Of a stretch of DNA of 64,000 bases, positions 41,809 to 61,712 are shown one piece after another. Each line of letters opens with the position of its first letter. The first letter of the stretch is position 1. Origin of the DNA: an uncultured Pelagibacteraceae bacterium (GTDB lineage: Bacteria; Pseudomonadota; Alphaproteobacteria; Pelagibacterales; Pelagibacteraceae); the NCBI GenBank assembly GCA_902580275.1, contig CACHJZ010000002.1:168334-232333 (forward strand), read 5' to 3'. A model generated the notes under the pieces. The model was not told the DNA's origin. It saw only the letters and a list, made by a program, of their open reading frames with translations, and did no database searches. Made by a program: the position numbers and the translations under genes.

Positions 41809-42723
41809 ATGAGTGAATTAGTAACTGACATAAAAAGTTTAGAAATTGAAACATTAAAAAATTTAAAAAATTCTAAAGCTCAAAACACGTTAAGAGCTTA
41901 CCAGGCTGATTTTAAAGACTTTTCAAGTTTTTGTGCTAAGAATGGCTTTAAGTCATTACCAACAGAGCCAAAGATAATAGCTTTATACCTCACCCATTTA
42001 AGCTCATTCTCGAAATTTAGTACTTTAAAAAGAAGAATAGCATCTATCAAAGTAGTTCATAAATTAAAAGGGCATTACATTGACGCTAAACATCCAATTA
42101 TTACTGAAAATATTATGGGTATTAAAAGAAAATTGGGAGTTAAACAAACATCTAAAAAACCTATATTAATCAATGATTTAAAAAATATAATTAATGTAAT
42201 AGATCAAGAAAAGAATGAAATTAAGAAATATCAAAACAAAGCTATGATATTAATTGGCTTCGCTGGAGGCTTTAGAAGATCTGAACTTGTATCGATTGAA
42301 TATGAAGATATAGATTTTGTATCTGAAGGAGTCAAAATAACAGTAACAAAATCAAAAACAGACCAAACAGGTATAGGGTTAACAAAGGCTATCCCCTACT
42401 TTGAAAACAAAACCTACTGCCCTGTAATATCATTAAGAAAATGGATAGAATATTCAAATATAAATATTGGTAAAATATTTAAAGTGTCGGATAAAACAGT
42501 AGCACTTACTATTAAAAAATACGCTTTAATGGCAGGATTAGATAACAGTAAGTACGCAGGTCATAGTTTAAGATCAGGATTTGCAACATCGACTGCGGAA
42601 ATAGGTGCAGATGAAAGAAGTATAATGGCAATGACAGGACATAAATCTACACAAATGGTAAGAAGGTATATTCAGGAAGCAAATTTGTTTAAAAACAATG
42701 CATTAAATAAGTTAAAAATTTAA
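41809..42723 (+). CDS. Tyrosine recombinase/integrase
   Basis: 304 aa phage-integrase-family recombinase. The N-terminal SAM-like core-binding domain spans about 15-110 (NTLRAYQADFKDFSSFC). The catalytic domain follows: first arginine in GFAGGFRRSELVSI (about 154), lysine in VTKSKTDQTG, the HxxR box HSLRSGFATS (about 257), GHKSTQMV and the nucleophile tyrosine in RRYIQEA. All catalytic residues are present, so it should be active. It is shorter than P4-type integrases and has no arm-binding domain, which is closer to XerC/D and plasmid resolvase types. Its stop touches the stop of the convergent GT11 gene. Confidence 0.9.
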   Translation: MSELVTDIKSLEIETLKNLKNSKAQNTLRAYQADFKDFSSFCAKNGFKSLPTEPKIIALYLTHLSSFSKFSTLKRRIASIKVVHKLKGHYIDAKHPIITENIMGIKRKLGVKQTSKKPILINDLKNIINVIDQEKNEIKKYQNKAMILIGFAGGFRRSELVSIEYEDIDFVSEGVKITVTKSKTDQTGIGLTKAIPYFENKTYCPVISLRKWIEYSNINIGKIFKVSDKTVALTIKKYALMAGLDNSKYAGHSLRSGFATSTAEIGADERSIMAMTGHKSTQMVRRYIQEANLFKNNALNKLKI

Positions 42724-43653
42724 TTATATAGACATCCAATCATCTGGCCAAAAATTCTTATTGTTTGAGGGATTGAGATTTGATGGACGGATACAAATTT
42801 TATTTGGATTATTATTTAACCAAGCCCCCCACCAATGAAATGAAGAAGGTCCTACAATAAAATGCTTGCAATATCTAAATAAATTGAAATCATTGATAAC
42901 GTTATTATTAACTATAGTATATTTGTTAATCTTTAACTTGCTCAGTACATTATTAATATCAATGTGATCATTGCACCATATAAAATATTCAGGATTAGAA
43001 ACTTTTGACTCGATGAAATCAATAGAATTATTTATATAATTAATAATATTTTCAACAAATATATCAGATTTTTGAATATTTACGCTTGTTTTTAATTTAT
43101 GTTGATCTGAAAATCTATTTCTTCGAATGTGTAAAGATATTGAATTTGAGTTTTTAATTCTATCAATAAAAGTATTAGATTTCTGGATTAATTCATTTTT
43201 TGGAGTGAATATTTTACATAAATCATCTTTATATTCAAAGAAATATTTATGATTTTCAAAATTACCTTGTATATATAAACTATCAGAAACCTTGGATTTA
43301 TCTAAATTAATAAATTCTTGAACTATTTTCTTATTTTCTATCCTAATTTGTTTTTCAATTAAAAATTTTTTTTTCTTTAAAAAAATATCAAAAAATAATT
43401 TAAATTTTTTTTGGAATAATTTGAATGGAGTATCATAAATCAAATTATCAGGTGCTATATTATTCGTAATATTAAAATTATTAAGCATATAAAACTGATG
43501 ATTTCTTAATAAATTTTTATTTCTTGAATAACCGCTTTTATTATCAATATACAAATTATAGTTTAGTTTCTTTGATAATGAATATGCAAAAGCATACATG
43601 AATAATTGGTTTCCTAAACCTTCAGAAATTTGGATAATTAATTTTTTTTTCAT
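42724..43653 (-). CDS. GT11 family glycosyltransferase (alpha-1,2-fucosyltransferase-like)
   Basis: 309 aa. N-terminal GDP-sugar binding start LIIQISEGLGNQLFMYAFAY, then SISLHIRRNRFSD (the HxRRxD-type motif of GT11, slightly altered) and FIVGPSSFHWWGAWLNNN. Family members add L-fucose in alpha-1,2 linkage to galactose. The donor and acceptor here are not certain. Likely decorates a surface polysaccharide. Its start overlaps the stop of the GT2 gene by 4 bp. Confidence 0.82.
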   Translation of the reverse strand: MKKKLIIQISEGLGNQLFMYAFAYSLSKKLNYNLYIDNKSGYSRNKNLLRNHQFYMLNNFNITNNIAPDNLIYDTPFKLFQKKFKLFFDIFLKKKKFLIEKQIRIENKKIVQEFINLDKSKVSDSLYIQGNFENHKYFFEYKDDLCKIFTPKNELIQKSNTFIDRIKNSNSISLHIRRNRFSDQHKLKTSVNIQKSDIFVENIINYINNSIDFIESKVSNPEYFIWCNDHIDINNVLSKLKINKYTIVNNNVINDFNLFRYCKHFIVGPSSFHWWGAWLNNNPNKICIRPSNLNPSNNKNFWPDDWMSI

Positions 43654-44516
43654 TTAATATACTTAGCAATCAAATATTTGATATTGCTAATAAAATAATC
43701 AAAATAATAACTTAAATTTTTAATAGGTTCTACTAATGGACCGCTATATAACTCCCCTCTTCTTAGAAAATGTGTAGTAAAAAAATCTACCGAAAATTTC
43801 CATTTTAATAAAAAAGTTTTCTTACCATTATTTGGTAAAACACTTGCGTTTTTTCTAGTTGTTACAGATCCAAAATGATAAAGTCTTGATTTTGATACAC
43901 TTTTGAAAATTCTATTCCCTTCGACCCAAAGTTTCATATTAAGATCGGGATCTGATGCAAATCCAGGATTAAATTCCTCACTGAAGCCACCTACCTTTTC
44001 CCATAAATCTTTTGGAATAAGATGTGGCGCCCAATGACTACCTTGAAGATCTTTAAATTCAAAAGTATTATAATTTTTAAGTAATTTTTCTTCATTAAAA
44101 TTTTCAAATGTATCTCCACAATCAAACTGAATATGTTGTATACTGCCATTAACAGGACCCATAGGGGCTAATTGTGTCATTGAAAGGTAAAATTTATTAC
44201 TATTTATTGAAGTCATTTCTTCGACTAAGGCATCATCCCAATTAGGTAAGAAATACATATCATCATGCGAATATAAAATGTAACTTTTAGAGCTTAATTT
44301 ATAGGCAGTGTTGACACCACTGCAAAGACCAATATTTTCATATGATTTAGAATGTATGATACTCTCATTTATAAGATAATTTTCTGTTTCGTTGTCTTCA
44401 CCATTTAAATGAACAATTATTTCATGATTAAATGATGAATTTTTTTTAATAGAATCTATAGTTAATTTACAGTATTTGTAATTATTATGACTTGGTATAA
44501 TGATTGAAAATTCCAT
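43650..44516 (-). CDS. GT2 family glycosyltransferase
   Basis: 288 aa, GT-A fold. Starts FSIIIPSHNNYKYCKLTIDSI. The metal-binding DxD equivalent is LYSHDDMYFLPNW (about 93), and FNPGFASDPDLNMKLWVEG (about 205) holds the ED-like catalytic acids. No membrane helix is evident. Part of the surface-polysaccharide cassette; acceptor unknown. Confidence 0.8.
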   Translation of the reverse strand: MEFSIIIPSHNNYKYCKLTIDSIKKNSSFNHEIIVHLNGEDNETENYLINESIIHSKSYENIGLCSGVNTAYKLSSKSYILYSHDDMYFLPNWDDALVEEMTSINSNKFYLSMTQLAPMGPVNGSIQHIQFDCGDTFENFNEEKLLKNYNTFEFKDLQGSHWAPHLIPKDLWEKVGGFSEEFNPGFASDPDLNMKLWVEGNRIFKSVSKSRLYHFGSVTTRKNASVLPNNGKKTFLLKWKFSVDFFTTHFLRRGELYSGPLVEPIKNLSYYFDYFISNIKYLIAKYIK

Positions 44517-44551
44517 GGAAACAATCCTAAAACAATAAATATTACAATTTT

Positions 44552-45538
44552 ATGTCCAAAAATACTAAAAAAATCGATACTGCTTTAATTGGTTGTGGTT
44601 ATTGGGGTACCAATATAGCAAAATCACTAATTACAATTAAAAAGACTATTTATGTTTTCGATGAGAATCACAATAACTGCAAAATTTTAAAAAAAAGATT
44701 TCCTAATTATATAAATATTGAGAAAAATCTGTCGAATATTCTTGTTAATAAAAAAATTAAAAACATAATTTTAGCTACCCCTCCAAGTAAAAACTTTAAA
44801 TTACTTAAAATATTTATAAATAATGAAAAAAATATATTTATTGAAAAACCAGGTCTTAAAAATTTAAAAGATATTGATTATTTTAAAAAATTAAAAAACA
44901 AAAAAATACTCATGTTTGGATATATTTATATGTTTAATAACTATATTAAATTTATAAAAAAATTTGTTTCAAATAAAAAGAATGGAAAAATATTATATTT
45001 AAAGTTTCAAAGACAAAATTTAGGACCTATAAGAAATGATGTAAGTGTTTCATATGATTTATCTTCTCATGATTTAAGTATATTATATTATTTTATTGGA
45101 GATTTACCAAAAAATCTTTCTGAAAAAAGCTATTCTATTTTAAAAAAAAAACTCCCTGATATATCTAATATTAGTGCTAAGTATAAAAATATTTACATAG
45201 ATATACATAATAGCTGGCTAAACCCGGATAAAGTAAGACGTATTACAGTTGTAACTAAAAAAAAAATGTTACTGTTTGATGAAATGAAAACAGATAATAA
45301 AATCGTTATATATAATAAATACGCAGTGTATCCAAAAATCTCTGAATTTAATAATAAGTTTTTCAACCAGAAAGCAAAAATATATTTTGGAAAAAACTAT
45401 TCACCAAGAATTAAATCTAACAACCCTCTTTTAGATGAGCTTAAATATTTCTTTAAATGTATTAAAAAAAATAATAAACCATTCACAAATATTGATTTTG
45501 CTGAAAAAATTTTAAAAAGTTTAGACAAACTTTATTAA
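44552..45538 (+). CDS. Gfo/Idh/MocA family oxidoreductase
   Basis: 328 aa. NAD(P)-binding TALIGCGYWGTNIAKSL at the N-terminus and the catalytic lysine motif FIEKPGLKNL (about 96). Family members oxidise or reduce sugars; within a glycan cassette a role in making a nucleotide sugar such as a 3-oxo or amino sugar precursor is plausible. It is the only + strand gene in the cassette, and its last bases overlap the convergent double glycosyltransferase. Confidence 0.82.
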   Translation: MSKNTKKIDTALIGCGYWGTNIAKSLITIKKTIYVFDENHNNCKILKKRFPNYINIEKNLSNILVNKKIKNIILATPPSKNFKLLKIFINNEKNIFIEKPGLKNLKDIDYFKKLKNKKILMFGYIYMFNNYIKFIKKFVSNKKNGKILYLKFQRQNLGPIRNDVSVSYDLSSHDLSILYYFIGDLPKNLSEKSYSILKKKLPDISNISAKYKNIYIDIHNSWLNPDKVRRITVVTKKKMLLFDEMKTDNKIVIYNKYAVYPKISEFNNKFFNQKAKIYFGKNYSPRIKSNNPLLDELKYFFKCIKKNNKPFTNIDFAEKILKSLDKLY

Positions 45539-47613
45539 AATGTATTTTCAATTATATTTTTTGTAATTATTTTATTGTTAAAAAGTTTGAAATATTTTAT
45601 TTTGCCATTTTTACCATATTCATTAATTTTTTTTGGATTACTAAGCATGTATTCAATCTTATTTCCTAAATCATTTAAATTTTTATAAAAACCAACTTCA
45701 TTTTCATTAAAATAATACTTAAATTTAGTCTTTTCATCTATAAAAGTATAAATTCCATTTCCGATTAGGGCAGCTATTCTGTTACTTGATGTATACTTAA
45801 GTGGTTTACCCCTGCTTAGATTGAGAGACATTTTACATTTTATTAATTCATTATAAAAATTATAATTCCATTTTGGTAACTCATTTGATATGCCCAAAAT
45901 ATTATATTTAATATTTGGGTATTGAAACATTAATTGGTTTATAAAACTTTCCCTTTCATCACTCTTACCTTTTTTTAGTTTGCCAAAATTTACACCATGA
46001 CTCAGTGCAAAAAATAAATCTTTATATCTGTTTTTATAATTGTAGATTTTTAAATTTTCTATATTAGGATCGACTGGTATTGGTAAATAATTTAATTTTT
46101 TTCTATCTATACTTGTTGATATTTCATCCGGATGTGTTGTTAAATAATATTGATCAATTAATTCTGAGTTTTTTTCAATCAAATTTAGGTTTTTTCTCCA
46201 ATTAGGACCCTCCCCTTTATGTCCTAGAGCGTCTTCGTACCACAATATTATTTTTGAATTATATTTTGATCTAATTTCAGACAATGTATCGTTTTCTAAA
46301 ATATTATTATGCCCTAGAACGATTAAATTAGGACGGTAATTTTCTACAATATTGCTTACTTTATTATTAATTATCTTATTATTTTTAGTTAAAAAATTTT
46401 TAGATAAATAATTACGATAACTGAAATTTATTACATCATGATTGTTTCTGATAAGTCCTTTAGAAATTTTGTTGGCTATAGATATATTGAATAAACGATG
46501 GTCACTCCTTTCATCAAAAGTAGATATGTGTAATACTTTTAAATTTACTCCTCTATTATAATTGAATTTCGGGCTTAGAAAGAAATATTTTAAATTATCA
46601 ATTTTTTTAACATGATCAGAAATGTTATGAATAACATTTTTCCAATTTTTTCTCTGAATTTTTTTTCTTAATAATTCATTTTTGATTAATTTTTCAATAA
46701 TATTTGAAAGTTCATGATGATTTATTTTGTTTATAAATAATGTATTATCGAAAGTTTCAGGTAAACCACCTCTTTTAGAGGTAATAGTTGCACACCCAAA
46801 AGCTGCGGATTCCATTGCTGTTCTACCAAATGGTTCTTGCCATCGCGAAGGAACAACGGAAATTGATGATTTTTTATAATAATTTAATATTTTAGCGTGT
46901 GTAACCCAATCAAGAATTTGAAAACGATTATGTTTAAAATTAAATTTTTCACGTGGTTCATTGCCAATTGCTAACGCCTTCCAGTCAGTAAACTTATCTA
47001 AAATTTTTATTACTGATTTGCCATATGTGTCAAAACCTTTAGAAGAGTTTAATTTACCTGTAAAAATAATTAATTTTTCTTTTTTGGGAAATTTTTTAAT
47101 AGGGCTAATAGCAGGATATAAAATATCACAGTTATTTCTATGCTTATAAGGTAAACCTTCAAAAAATTTGTTTTTAACCCAATTGCTAACAAAATAAATT
47201 TGATCTGTATTTTCAGCAATAAAGATTCTTTCATTTATTGATGATGACGATCTTAAATCTTGAGGATTATTATGATAAATGAATATAAGTTTTGATTTTA
47301 CTTTTTTTTTAATTAAATAAAGCAATGACTCTGGTCTATTATGAATTTCAATTATTTTAAAATTGTACTTTAGATATTCTTTATATAACTTGTCAGTATA
47401 AGAAATATTTTTTTTAACAAAGGAATTACCCAATTTAAGATTTTTAAAATTTTTAAGTAACGGTTTTGAGTTATCACTGAGATACCCATACACAGTAGAT
47501 CTACTTTTTAAACTACTTTTGTTTAAATAATCTTTTACCCAGATAGATGCAGCTCCAGCATTGTTTTCGGTAAAGTTTTCTTTATATGGTAATAAGATTG
47601 CGATATCTTTCAT
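45535..47613 (-). CDS. Large protein with two glycosyltransferase-like domains (GT4 plus CgeB-like)
   Basis: 692 aa. Residues 1-340 look like a GT4 enzyme: IFTGKLNSSKGFDTYG, then RWQEPFGRTAMESAAFGCA and SKRGGLPETF. Residues from about 352 (VLHISTFDERSDHRLFNI) resemble a second GT-B unit ending in a CgeB/Glyco_trans_1_2-like part (LIKCKMSLNLSRG, SNRIAALIGNG). A fusion of two transferases could build two successive linkages. Starts with a 4-bp overlap of the acyltransferase gene. Confidence 0.75.
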   Translation of the reverse strand: MKDIAILLPYKENFTENNAGAASIWVKDYLNKSSLKSRSTVYGYLSDNSKPLLKNFKNLKLGNSFVKKNISYTDKLYKEYLKYNFKIIEIHNRPESLLYLIKKKVKSKLIFIYHNNPQDLRSSSSINERIFIAENTDQIYFVSNWVKNKFFEGLPYKHRNNCDILYPAISPIKKFPKKEKLIIFTGKLNSSKGFDTYGKSVIKILDKFTDWKALAIGNEPREKFNFKHNRFQILDWVTHAKILNYYKKSSISVVPSRWQEPFGRTAMESAAFGCATITSKRGGLPETFDNTLFINKINHHELSNIIEKLIKNELLRKKIQRKNWKNVIHNISDHVKKIDNLKYFFLSPKFNYNRGVNLKVLHISTFDERSDHRLFNISIANKISKGLIRNNHDVINFSYRNYLSKNFLTKNNKIINNKVSNIVENYRPNLIVLGHNNILENDTLSEIRSKYNSKIILWYEDALGHKGEGPNWRKNLNLIEKNSELIDQYYLTTHPDEISTSIDRKKLNYLPIPVDPNIENLKIYNYKNRYKDLFFALSHGVNFGKLKKGKSDERESFINQLMFQYPNIKYNILGISNELPKWNYNFYNELIKCKMSLNLSRGKPLKYTSSNRIAALIGNGIYTFIDEKTKFKYYFNENEVGFYKNLNDLGNKIEYMLSNPKKINEYGKNGKIKYFKLFNNKIITKNIIENTF

Positions 47614-59615: not shown

Positions 59616-60597
59616 TTTTAAATTTATCTTTTAATGTACAAACAGCCAGTCCAAATCTCAATGATCTATTCCACTTAAGAATAAGTTCATAGTTACTAAA
59701 TACAATGTAAGCAGGTTCATTTATTTTAGCATTATCCACAATATCAGCATCTGGTGTGATTATGGCGACTTTGATATTTTCGTCAAATTTTAGATCATCA
59801 TAGATATATTTTTTAAAATATTTTAATTTTTTTTTATTTTTAATTTTTCTAGCTGATGTATTAAGAATTTTTTTAGGTACATTTTTTTTAAGTGTTACTT
59901 TTTGAAAACATGGGTCATTTTTGATCCATCCCATTTTGTTTAAATAATTTGCCGCAGAAGCAAATGAATCTGAATTACTTTTTAATTCAATCAAATTATT
60001 TGAGTTAAAATCTAATGCATAATTTTTAATCGTTGATGGCATAAATTGGAAATTACCAAAAGCTCCAGCCCATGATCCATATAAAATTTCCGGATCAATT
60101 ATCTCTTGATCAATTAATTTTAGAATAATTAACAATTCCCTAGTAAAAAATTCACTTCTTCTTTTATCAAAGCTTAATGTAGACAATGAAGAAATTATAT
60201 CCATTTTTCCAAGATATGTTCCAAAATTTGTTTCTATTCCCATTAAAGCTAATAATAGTTCTTTTTCAATTTTGAAATTTTTGTCAACATTGTTAATAAG
60301 TTCAGCATTATTTTTATAATAATTTAAACCTGATCTAACTTTTTTTTTTGAAGTCCTTTTTGATATATATGTTTTAGTATCCTCATAAAATTCTGGTTGA
60401 TATCTGTCATATTCAATAACTTTGGGTAGAAATTTTGCATTTTTCATTATTTTATCAAAAGTATCTTCTGAAATTCCTTCTTTAAGTGCTTTTTTTTTAA
60501 AATCTATTTTCCACTGATCAAAATTGTACGCGAAAGTGCTATTTGTTATTATTAAAAAACATAAAGATATGTAAAAAAATAATTTATTTATTTTCAT
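59605..60597 (-). CDS. mltB: Lytic murein transglycosylase (MltB/GH103)
   Basis: 330 aa. Signal peptide LFFYISLCFLIITNSTFA. Catalytic glutamate in LMGIETNFGTYLGK (about 117), then YGSWAGAFGNFQFMPST (about 170) and NDPCFQKVTL. A second transglycosylase beside slt at 9 kb. Overlaps rlpA by 11 bp and rarD by 14 bp. Confidence 0.93.
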   Translation of the reverse strand: MKINKLFFYISLCFLIITNSTFAYNFDQWKIDFKKKALKEGISEDTFDKIMKNAKFLPKVIEYDRYQPEFYEDTKTYISKRTSKKKVRSGLNYYKNNAELINNVDKNFKIEKELLLALMGIETNFGTYLGKMDIISSLSTLSFDKRRSEFFTRELLIILKLIDQEIIDPEILYGSWAGAFGNFQFMPSTIKNYALDFNSNNLIELKSNSDSFASAANYLNKMGWIKNDPCFQKVTLKKNVPKKILNTSARKIKNKKKLKYFKKYIYDDLKFDENIKVAIITPDADIVDNAKINEPAYIVFSNYELILKWNRSLRFGLAVCTLKDKFKNEL

Positions 60598-61468
60598 AAA
60601 TGTCCTTTAAATAAATAAATACAGCAATCCATATAAAAATAAAACTAATTAACTTCTCTAAATTAAGAGCCTCATTATATATAAAAAAACCAAGTAAAAA
60701 TTGTAATGTAGGTGTAATATAAAAAATCATACCTGTTGGACCAAGACCACATAGCTCTACACCCCTAACATATAAGTATAAAGGAATTACTGTCATTGGA
60801 CCAGCTAACATAAATATGAGCATTAGTTTGGGGTTCGATAAACTGAAATCATTAAAATTATTTTGCACAATAAAATAAAATGCAATCAAAATTACAGGTA
60901 GAATAAATAAACTTTCAATTAAAAGTCCAATATCTGTTTCAACTTCAATTTTTTTTCTTAAAAGATTGTAAAAACTCCAACTAAACGCAACAATTAATCC
61001 TACCCAAGGTATGGAATTAAAATTTGAAACAATGAGGAATAAAATTGAAAAAAATACAATTACTACAGAAATTTTTCCCTTAAAACTTAAATATTCTTTA
61101 AAAAAAAAATAACCTAAAAAGATACTTATTATTGGCATTATGAAATACCCAAAGCTAGCGTCTATTAGACGATCACTACTGACTGCATAAATCCAAACAG
61201 CCCAATTTGTAAAGATTAATATTCCAGAAAAAAAAAGTATTAAAATATTTTTTTTAATTTTTATTAATTTTTTTAATTTGCTAAATCTTGAAAATAATAA
61301 CGTTGTAAAAATTAACATTACTGTAGTCCATAAACTTCTATGTATTACAACTTCTATATGACCTGCAAAAGCTATGTACTTAAAATAAATTACTCCTATT
61401 AGTCCCCACCAAAATGACCCAGCAGCAGTTAAAAATATTCCTTTATTAAAATTATTATTATTTGACAC
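60584..61468 (-). CDS. rarD: RarD/EamA family transporter
   Basis: 294 aa, ten hydrophobic helices. RarD features: KGIFLTAAGSFWWGLIGVIYFKYIA at the N-terminus, HRSLWTTVMLIF, FGYFIMPIISIFLGYFFFKE and YLYVRGVELCGLGPTGMIFYITPTL. Substrate unknown (family name from chloramphenicol sensitivity). It is the first gene of the long minus-strand operon. Confidence 0.9.
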   Translation of the reverse strand: MSNNNNFNKGIFLTAAGSFWWGLIGVIYFKYIAFAGHIEVVIHRSLWTTVMLIFTTLLFSRFSKLKKLIKIKKNILILFFSGILIFTNWAVWIYAVSSDRLIDASFGYFIMPIISIFLGYFFFKEYLSFKGKISVVIVFFSILFLIVSNFNSIPWVGLIVAFSWSFYNLLRKKIEVETDIGLLIESLFILPVILIAFYFIVQNNFNDFSLSNPKLMLIFMLAGPMTVIPLYLYVRGVELCGLGPTGMIFYITPTLQFLLGFFIYNEALNLEKLISFIFIWIAVFIYLKDIYENK

Positions 61469-61533: not shown

Positions 61534-61572
61534 GGAGAGATGGCTGAGCCGTTGAAAGCACCAGTCTTGAAA
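61534..61572 (+). pseudogene. 5' half of tRNA-Ser(TGA), cut at the anticodon loop
   Basis: GGAGAGATGGCTGAGCCGTT and the following D arm, then CCAGT-CTTGAAA reproduce tRNA-Ser(TGA) through base 38 exactly. The 3' anticodon strand ACTGG, variable arm, T arm and acceptor are missing; the sequence continues TAACAATAATCCCC. Integration inside anticodon loops is a known habit of tyrosine recombinases, so this is probably one end of an inserted element, with the repaired gene at the other end outside the window. Confidence 0.75.
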
Positions 61573-61614
61573 TAACAATAATCCCCTACCCACTCTAAGG
61601 CGATTAACATGCTT

Positions 61615-61637
61615 ATCAAGCCATTGCTTGATTTTTT
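61615..61637 (+). terminator. Rho-independent terminator
   Basis: ATCAAGC-CATT-GCTTGAT is a perfect 7-bp stem with a 4-base loop, followed at once by TTTTT. It reads on the + strand, downstream of the tRNA-Ser half, and would stop transcription from that side before the methylase 3' end. It is one of the few clean terminators in the window. Confidence 0.65.
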
Positions 61638-61688
61638 AAATTTTATTTTTACAAAAAAGCGTCATTCTTGGTTTGCCTAAGCTAGTAA

Positions 61689-61708
61689 ACTTGTACGCCA
61701 CTTGTACG
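61689..61708. repeat. Tandem 9-bp direct repeat ACTTGTACG
   Basis: ACTTGTACG occurs twice with an 11-bp period (61689-61697, 61700-61708), about 120 bp inside the tRNA-Ser breakpoint and just past the methylase stop. Short direct repeats with helical spacing near an att core are typical of integrase arm-binding sites. The repeat is seen; the arm-site role is inferred. Confidence 0.5.
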
Positions 61709-61712
61709 GAAC

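Follow-up and report, generated by a model that had tools for sequence, protein, structure and literature searches.

Small integrase-less cassettes at tRNA anticodon loops in SAR11 bacteria, probably mobilised by the integrases of other elements

How does an element with no recombinase gene beside it come to sit in the anticodon loop of a tRNA gene? This question is raised by a stretch of 64,000 nucleotides ("the window") from the genome of an uncultured Pelagibacteraceae bacterium of the SAR11 group (GenBank assembly GCA_902580275.1, 1.18 Mb in 18 contigs). The right edge of the window is the end of a contig (CACHJZ010000002.1; C2 below). Near that edge is the 5' half of a tRNA-Ser(UGA) gene, and an earlier note on this DNA had read it as one border of an element that had integrated in the anticodon loop, with the complete tRNA, the other end, and an integrase expected to the right. 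We think it probable that the element is a minimal integrative cassette that has no recombinase and that is moved in trans by the tyrosine integrase of another element. The relatives that we compare it to are SAR11 genomes from the same genus, most of which are incomplete; 399 of them were scanned with sequence models and protein families, and 321 with exact patterns.

The displaced half corresponds to the first 39 nt of tRNA-Ser(UGA), with two mismatches, and includes the whole anticodon loop (CTTGAAA), at whose last base it ends; the note had likewise described a cut at this loop. ARAGORN finds three tRNAs within the window, and tRNA-Ser(UGA) is not among them; it finds the complete gene on contig C16 (3,033 bp), which has the only other match to the half in this genome. 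On C16, the intact tRNA-Ser(UGA) is followed by an sdhE-like gene and then by recG. The opposite side of the tRNA has a repeat pair (ACTTGAACA-ACTTGTACG) and a gene of which C16 holds only the beginning, and the methylase gene on C2 leaves the window in the direction that matches this gene start. If the left flank from the window and the right flank from C16 are joined at the anticodon loop, then they give an unbroken 2.4-kb alignment to empty sites in two relatives (80.4% identity for G026 and 79.4% for G009), so C2 and C16 border one and the same site. The empty sites of relatives also have a rarD-like gene beside tRNA-Ser (for example, 84% protein identity at L007 and 85% at L008). Thus, the complete tRNA, the other end, and precise empty sites were all found as anticipated.

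The half beside rarD is the chromosome's original 5' half, and the 5' half and promoter of the intact gene arrived with the element, a point that the note had missed. The 44 bp upstream of the intact tRNA-Ser resemble the regions upstream of tRNA-Ser in other SAR11 genomes, and the crossover region is the 7-nt anticodon loop, where identity ends. With an intact tRNA, a displaced half, and empty sites in relatives, the locus has the regenerated target of a tRNA-integrated island (Islander type). What it does not have is an integrase of its own at either end, although the stretch between C2 and C16 is unread; in this respect the note was wrong. When we scanned the genome for PF00589, the only hit was an Xer-like protein at 41809-42723, and there was none beside the element. 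A family of ~550-aa integrases that occupies this site in relatives is absent from this genome.

The spaced tandem repeat that the note had pointed out is present as a pair of ACTTGTACG copies (Table 1). The genome has three copies of the motif AACTTGTACG: at the window's end of the element, at the other end on C16, and once singly elsewhere. The reversed control also occurs three times, and what is above chance is that the motif is placed as a pair at each end of the element, as it is in relatives. The suspected terminator after the half-tRNA does exist as a hairpin ahead of T-rich DNA, within a ~117-bp stretch that is conserved among left ends, but it is weak, with just 4 bp (AAGC/GCTT). We found no conserved RNA fold in the alignment of left ends (4 pairs, -0.42 kcal/mol).

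Judging from its sequence, the element appears to hold one gene, for a type IIG-like methylase, between two recombination ends, and to be ~3 kb long. The large DNA methylase of the note is real and runs off the window at the contig end. Besides two Pfam matches (PF07669 and PF02384; Table 1), its C-terminal part matches PADLOC's type IIG model (REase_MTase_IIG; E 9e-54), so it has an N6-methyltransferase domain of the Eco57I/type IIG kind. Neither Pfam nor PADLOC has a model that matches the N-terminal part on C16, and the middle of the gene is in the assembly gap. The ends of C2 and C16 do not overlap. Because the type IIG model aligns from model position 298 at residue 2 of the C-terminal part, and because C16 has ~209 aa, the gap is probably short (we estimate 0-0.3 kb). 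The methylase has no homologues in the other 398 genomes of the genus (E <= 1e-20) or in viral contigs, so this cassette is not traceable between species.

Table 1. Features of the window's element and of its left flank
Feature	Position	Strand	Remarks
rarD-like (EamA/DMT family) transporter gene	60584..61468	-	chromosomal gene to the left of the insertion site
Displaced 5' half of tRNA-Ser(UGA), left attachment (att) site	61534..61572	+	37 of 39 positions identical to the intact gene on C16
Conserved left-end sequence of the element	61573..61688	+	aligns with other elements' left ends; scores 103 bits (E 8.5e-30) with the left-end model
Terminal repeat copy 1 (ACTTGTACG), candidate integrase arm site	61689..61697	+	also present at the element's right end on C16 (2363-2382)
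Terminal repeat copy 2 (ACTTGTACG)	61700..61708	+	11 bp after copy 1
Type IIG-like N6 DNA methyltransferase, C-terminal 761 aa	61713..64000	-	only cargo gene seen; PF07669 E 9e-18, PF02384 E 3e-16
Start of the methylase gene, ~209-220 aa	contig C16, L004:2406-3033		frame running off the contig end

The site is a hotspot for cassettes, which the note had not noticed. The same displaced half of tRNA-Ser is seen in many relatives, and other genomes have different genes at this site, with the same kind of ends. A model built from six left ends (cut-off E < 1e-6) found 29 left ends at tRNA-Ser(UGA) in 25 of the 399 genomes. Nearly all of these come after a 5' half; those of G228, G399, and G227 are truncated at a contig end, decayed, or matched only in part. 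An exact pattern for the displaced half gave 13 copies, from 12 of the 321 genomes; such a pattern is blind to decayed halves, the window's included. The elements at tRNA-Ser range from 212 bp without a gene (L128) up to 14.7 kb (L132a), and just one of their 66 open reading frames belongs to the integrase family. The 212-bp element (L128:1969-2181, in flipped orientation, from G191) has two ends and ACTTGAGAC repeats, as in an integrase-bearing element of G385.

A second site, tRNA-Leu(UAA), is a busier hotspot than tRNA-Ser, with cassettes of one to five genes. With the exact pattern for its displaced 5' half, we counted 80 copies, which come from 68 of the 321 genomes (the reversed control found none). 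We read 20 of the Leu loci (L208-L227): intact tRNA-Leu is downstream in 19, the units are 1.0-5.3 kb, two units are present at six loci, and the integrase family is at none of the 20. Over both sites, the elements are 0.2 to 15 kb and often have one to three genes. Tandem arrays of two or three units are found at L121, L127, L211, L214, L215, L216, L222, and L223. In L121 and L132 the leftmost tRNA half is the most decayed, as it should be if new units come in beside the tRNA. L127 is not simply in line with entry on that side, as its second half lacks its 5' end. At the Ser site, most cargo genes point away from the tRNA; at the Leu site, most point towards it. One Leu element (L226:891-2084, from G330) has atypical ends, with CTAGTGTAGT repeats, and a single 397-aa protein that has no match in Pfam, PHROGs, PADLOC, or our integrase profile.

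At either end of an element is a pair of 11-bp direct repeats; the left pair lies ~115-130 bp in from the left junction, and the right pair ~75 bp ahead of the intact tRNA. The repeats are alike at the two ends of an element and differ between elements (ACTTGTACG, ACTTGAGAC, ACTAGAACG, ACCAGCACA, and others). Across 23 Ser elements, the left and right repeats agree at 131 of 138 variable positions, as compared to a mean of 73 if shuffled (0 of 20,000 shuffles reached 131). Similarly, the two ends share an 8-mer in 28 of 29 Leu elements (shuffled mean 16.8; 0 of 5,000 shuffles) and in 22 of 23 Ser elements (0 of 5,000). Related elements have common repeats, so the elements in these permutation tests are not independent samples. 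The window's ACTTGTACG repeat is also found in cassettes from G061, G382, and G183. Many Ser and Leu elements with unrelated cargo (for example, L117, L118, and L209) have a conserved motif similar to ATAGGATTTTATAGGA immediately inward of their right repeats.

Integrases of the ~550-aa family are present in 6 of the 399 genomes, on satellite-like elements of ~8-10 kb that have the same geometry as the cassettes. In G385, a 9.0-kb element lies beside the tRNA, after an integrase-less unit, and encodes a 558-aa integrase, a helix-turn-helix-like protein, and a primase. The integrase from G385 itself has no match in Pfam, but all five members of the family match phrog_1 and three match PF00589, and in predicted fold there are matches to Tn1549 Int, XerH, and lambda Int (mean predicted local distance difference test score of 74). 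By both sequence and predicted fold, then, these are tyrosine recombinases. A scan of GTDB genomes gave seven loci with this family, all from Pelagibacteraceae or Pelagibacterales. At tRNA-Leu(UAA), the integrase is found with an exact displaced 5' half in G179, G227, and AG-909-L14, and with a half that has two mismatches in G261.

If an integrase on one element moves other elements, then the recognition sequences should be identical, and this is the case for four types of repeats, each at the same tRNA. ACTTGAGAC is common to the integrase-bearing G385 element and to L122 and L128, which have no integrase; ACCAGCACA to G179 and to L208, L209, and L219; ACCAGTACC to AG-909-L14 and to L222b and L223b; and ACTAGAAAC to G227 and to L215b. 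The window's ACTTGTACG type is not among the four. G385 and an integrase-less element of G080 also have in common the 48 bp with which the left end begins.

We propose that a helper tyrosine integrase, of the kind found on the ~8-10-kb elements, would be supplied by another element and would bind the 11-bp repeats at both ends of a cassette. The 7-nt anticodon loop would be the place where the cassette's copy of the tRNA 5' half recombines with the tRNA-Ser(UGA) of the chromosome, an exchange that would strand the original 5' half at the left. As the cassette would bring a new promoter and 5' half, the tRNA would stay whole, and a later cassette could enter the new intact tRNA, so that arrays would grow beside it. 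We infer the binding of the integrase to the repeats, the mobilisation in trans, and the route from cell to cell from the sequences. More broadly, we lean towards the view that SAR11 bacteria have a pool of integrase-less, defence-rich cassettes, mostly with one to three genes, that enter the anticodon loops of two tRNAs, tRNA-Ser(UGA) and tRNA-Leu(UAA), and are stacked there. They would be moved by the integrases of rare satellite-like elements, whose arm repeats would set compatibility groups, in an integron-like capture on tRNA genes.

Several results weigh against mobilisation in trans. The two mismatches in the window's displaced half imply that this insertion is not fresh, and its methylase gene is split by an assembly gap. 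We found no integrase element with ACTTGTACG arms that could be the helper for the window's cassette. One element (L132a) has ends that differ, with ACTTGTACC-like repeats at one and ACTTGAAGT at the other. Because the relatives' genomes are incomplete, the absence of integrases is partly uncertain. Also, we saw no movement, excised circle, or virion form.

The cassettes could instead be remnants of satellites or prophages that lost their integrase after insertion, like cis-mobilizable elements, so that their site-specific movement is over. Integrase-bearing elements with the same ends do exist, and the two mutations in the window's half-tRNA would fit. We consider this explanation unlikely, as almost no cassette retains an integrase, a primase, or another satellite gene, the cargo is compact and diverse, and most of the displaced tRNA-Leu halves are perfect. 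Furthermore, the ends and repeats stay matched in tens of elements with several types of repeats. Mobilisation in trans predicts matched ends without the enzyme, and decay does not.

Neither do we put much weight on the idea that the cassettes now spread chiefly by homologous recombination between the flanking genes (rarD and recG), with an integrase acting at rare founding events only. Recombination is high in SAR11 and the flanks are conserved core genes. Moreover, close relatives differ at the site: six genomes whose left flanks are 94-97% identical have three states (empty, a MmeI cassette, or a cassette with an HKD-helicase and a type IIG gene). Still, this would not explain why the left and right repeats match or why units are stacked in tandem with exact tRNA halves. 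As for the lone Xer-like recombinase of the chromosome, it might move the cassettes as the integrase of a chromosomal integron does, and it is the only PF00589 protein that we found in this genome and falls under the XerC/XerD equivalog cut-offs. But at 304 aa it apparently has no N-terminal arm-binding region, yet the site has arm-like repeats, and the ~550-aa integrases occupy the same kind of site with matching repeats. A role for the Xer-like protein seems very improbable to us.

Judging by their similarity to known systems, many of the cassettes carry genes of anti-phage systems, which would be active in defence. The cargo at the two sites includes MmeI, HKD/Snf2 helicases with type IIG proteins, type III restriction-modification systems, subunits of type I restriction-modification systems, NB-ARC proteins, McrBC, Zorya type II, and caspase-like proteins. 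Some of the cargo is not for defence: L129 has a glycosyltransferase-like gene and a lipid-kinase-like gene. A tRNA-Leu cassette of G299 (L223:1041-3833) has a complete-looking Zorya type II set (ZorA2, ZorB2, and ZorE2). Secreted-looking proteins with a caspase-like C-terminus (the end is near PSLAGDPDKVLISYR) recur in L132 (G385), L134 (G399), L125, L131, and L222, and sometimes there are several in a row within one element.

Integron cassettes, and the arrays of them without an integrase (clusters of attC sites lacking integron integrases, or CALINs), are small, mostly promoter-proximal units at one site that are moved by a tyrosine recombinase in trans (PMC11389934). Like these, the SAR11 cassettes have no recombinase and are stacked in arrays. 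Unlike these, they are double-ended, have paired arm-like repeats, and insert in a tRNA anticodon loop; their left ends have no attC-like fold; and the recombinase belongs to a phage- or satellite-type integrase family rather than to IntI. The SAR11 cassettes also resemble miniature inverted-repeat transposable elements (MITEs) in that they are non-autonomous and are defined by ends that an enzyme encoded elsewhere would recognise; the 212-bp L128 is ends only. They differ from MITEs in their site-specific integration of the tyrosine-integrase type and their usual cargo genes, and they have neither a transposase system nor transposon ends. We conclude that they are neither integron cassettes nor MITEs but a variant of trans-mobilised ("hitcher") elements.

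Other comparisons are to elements with their own integrase. Zhao and Williams reportedly described, in 2002, tRNA-integrated islands with a reversed target orientation. Those islands bear integrases, whereas most of the SAR11 elements here are integrase-less and have one to three genes. In general outline, tycheposons and virion-encapsidated integrative mobile elements of marine bacteria are similar to the SAR11 elements in being linked to tRNAs, in having a tyrosine recombinase, and in their exchangeable cargo. The ~8-10-kb SAR11 elements with integrase and primase resemble phage satellites. In contrast to tycheposons and their kin, the window's element is ~3 kb and integrase-less, and we looked for a virion form and did not find one. 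In the defence hotspots of P4 and P2, defence genes are exchanged at fixed positions of mobile elements (PMC9122126). The defence genes of SAR11 are likewise exchangeable at a fixed place, but the SAR11 cassette has recombination ends of its own and enters the host's tRNA directly. We did not find a description of such SAR11 cassettes in the open-access literature, and our claim of novelty extends to that part of the literature.

SAR11 bacteria rank with the most abundant cell groups of the ocean and have small genomes with few recognised mobile elements. If our proposal is correct, then a pool of cassettes that swaps defence genes at two tRNA sites helps to explain how phage resistance varies among such small genomes; cassettes at tRNA-Leu alone are in about a fifth of the sampled genomes. 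Matching repeats to integrases would predict which element mobilises which cassette. A displaced 5' tRNA half together with matched repeats is also a simple rule for finding integrase-less elements that searches based on integrases overlook.

Searches for the family among viruses gave no relatives of the integrase in viral contigs or phage records, and the Leu pattern for a phage attachment site (attP) had no match in viral contigs. We considered the tRNA-Ser(UGA) genes of marine viral contigs as potential attP sites and rejected them, as they are complete phage tRNA genes; the hits of two left-end patterns in viral contigs were also rejected, all being chance matches inside phage genes. The gene for the window's Xer-like tyrosine recombinase is beside sugar/glycosyltransferase-type genes (42724-47613). 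Finally, a divergent member of the integrase family (L153:238-2026, from G217) is directly upstream of tRNA-Ser(GCT), which may be a third target site.
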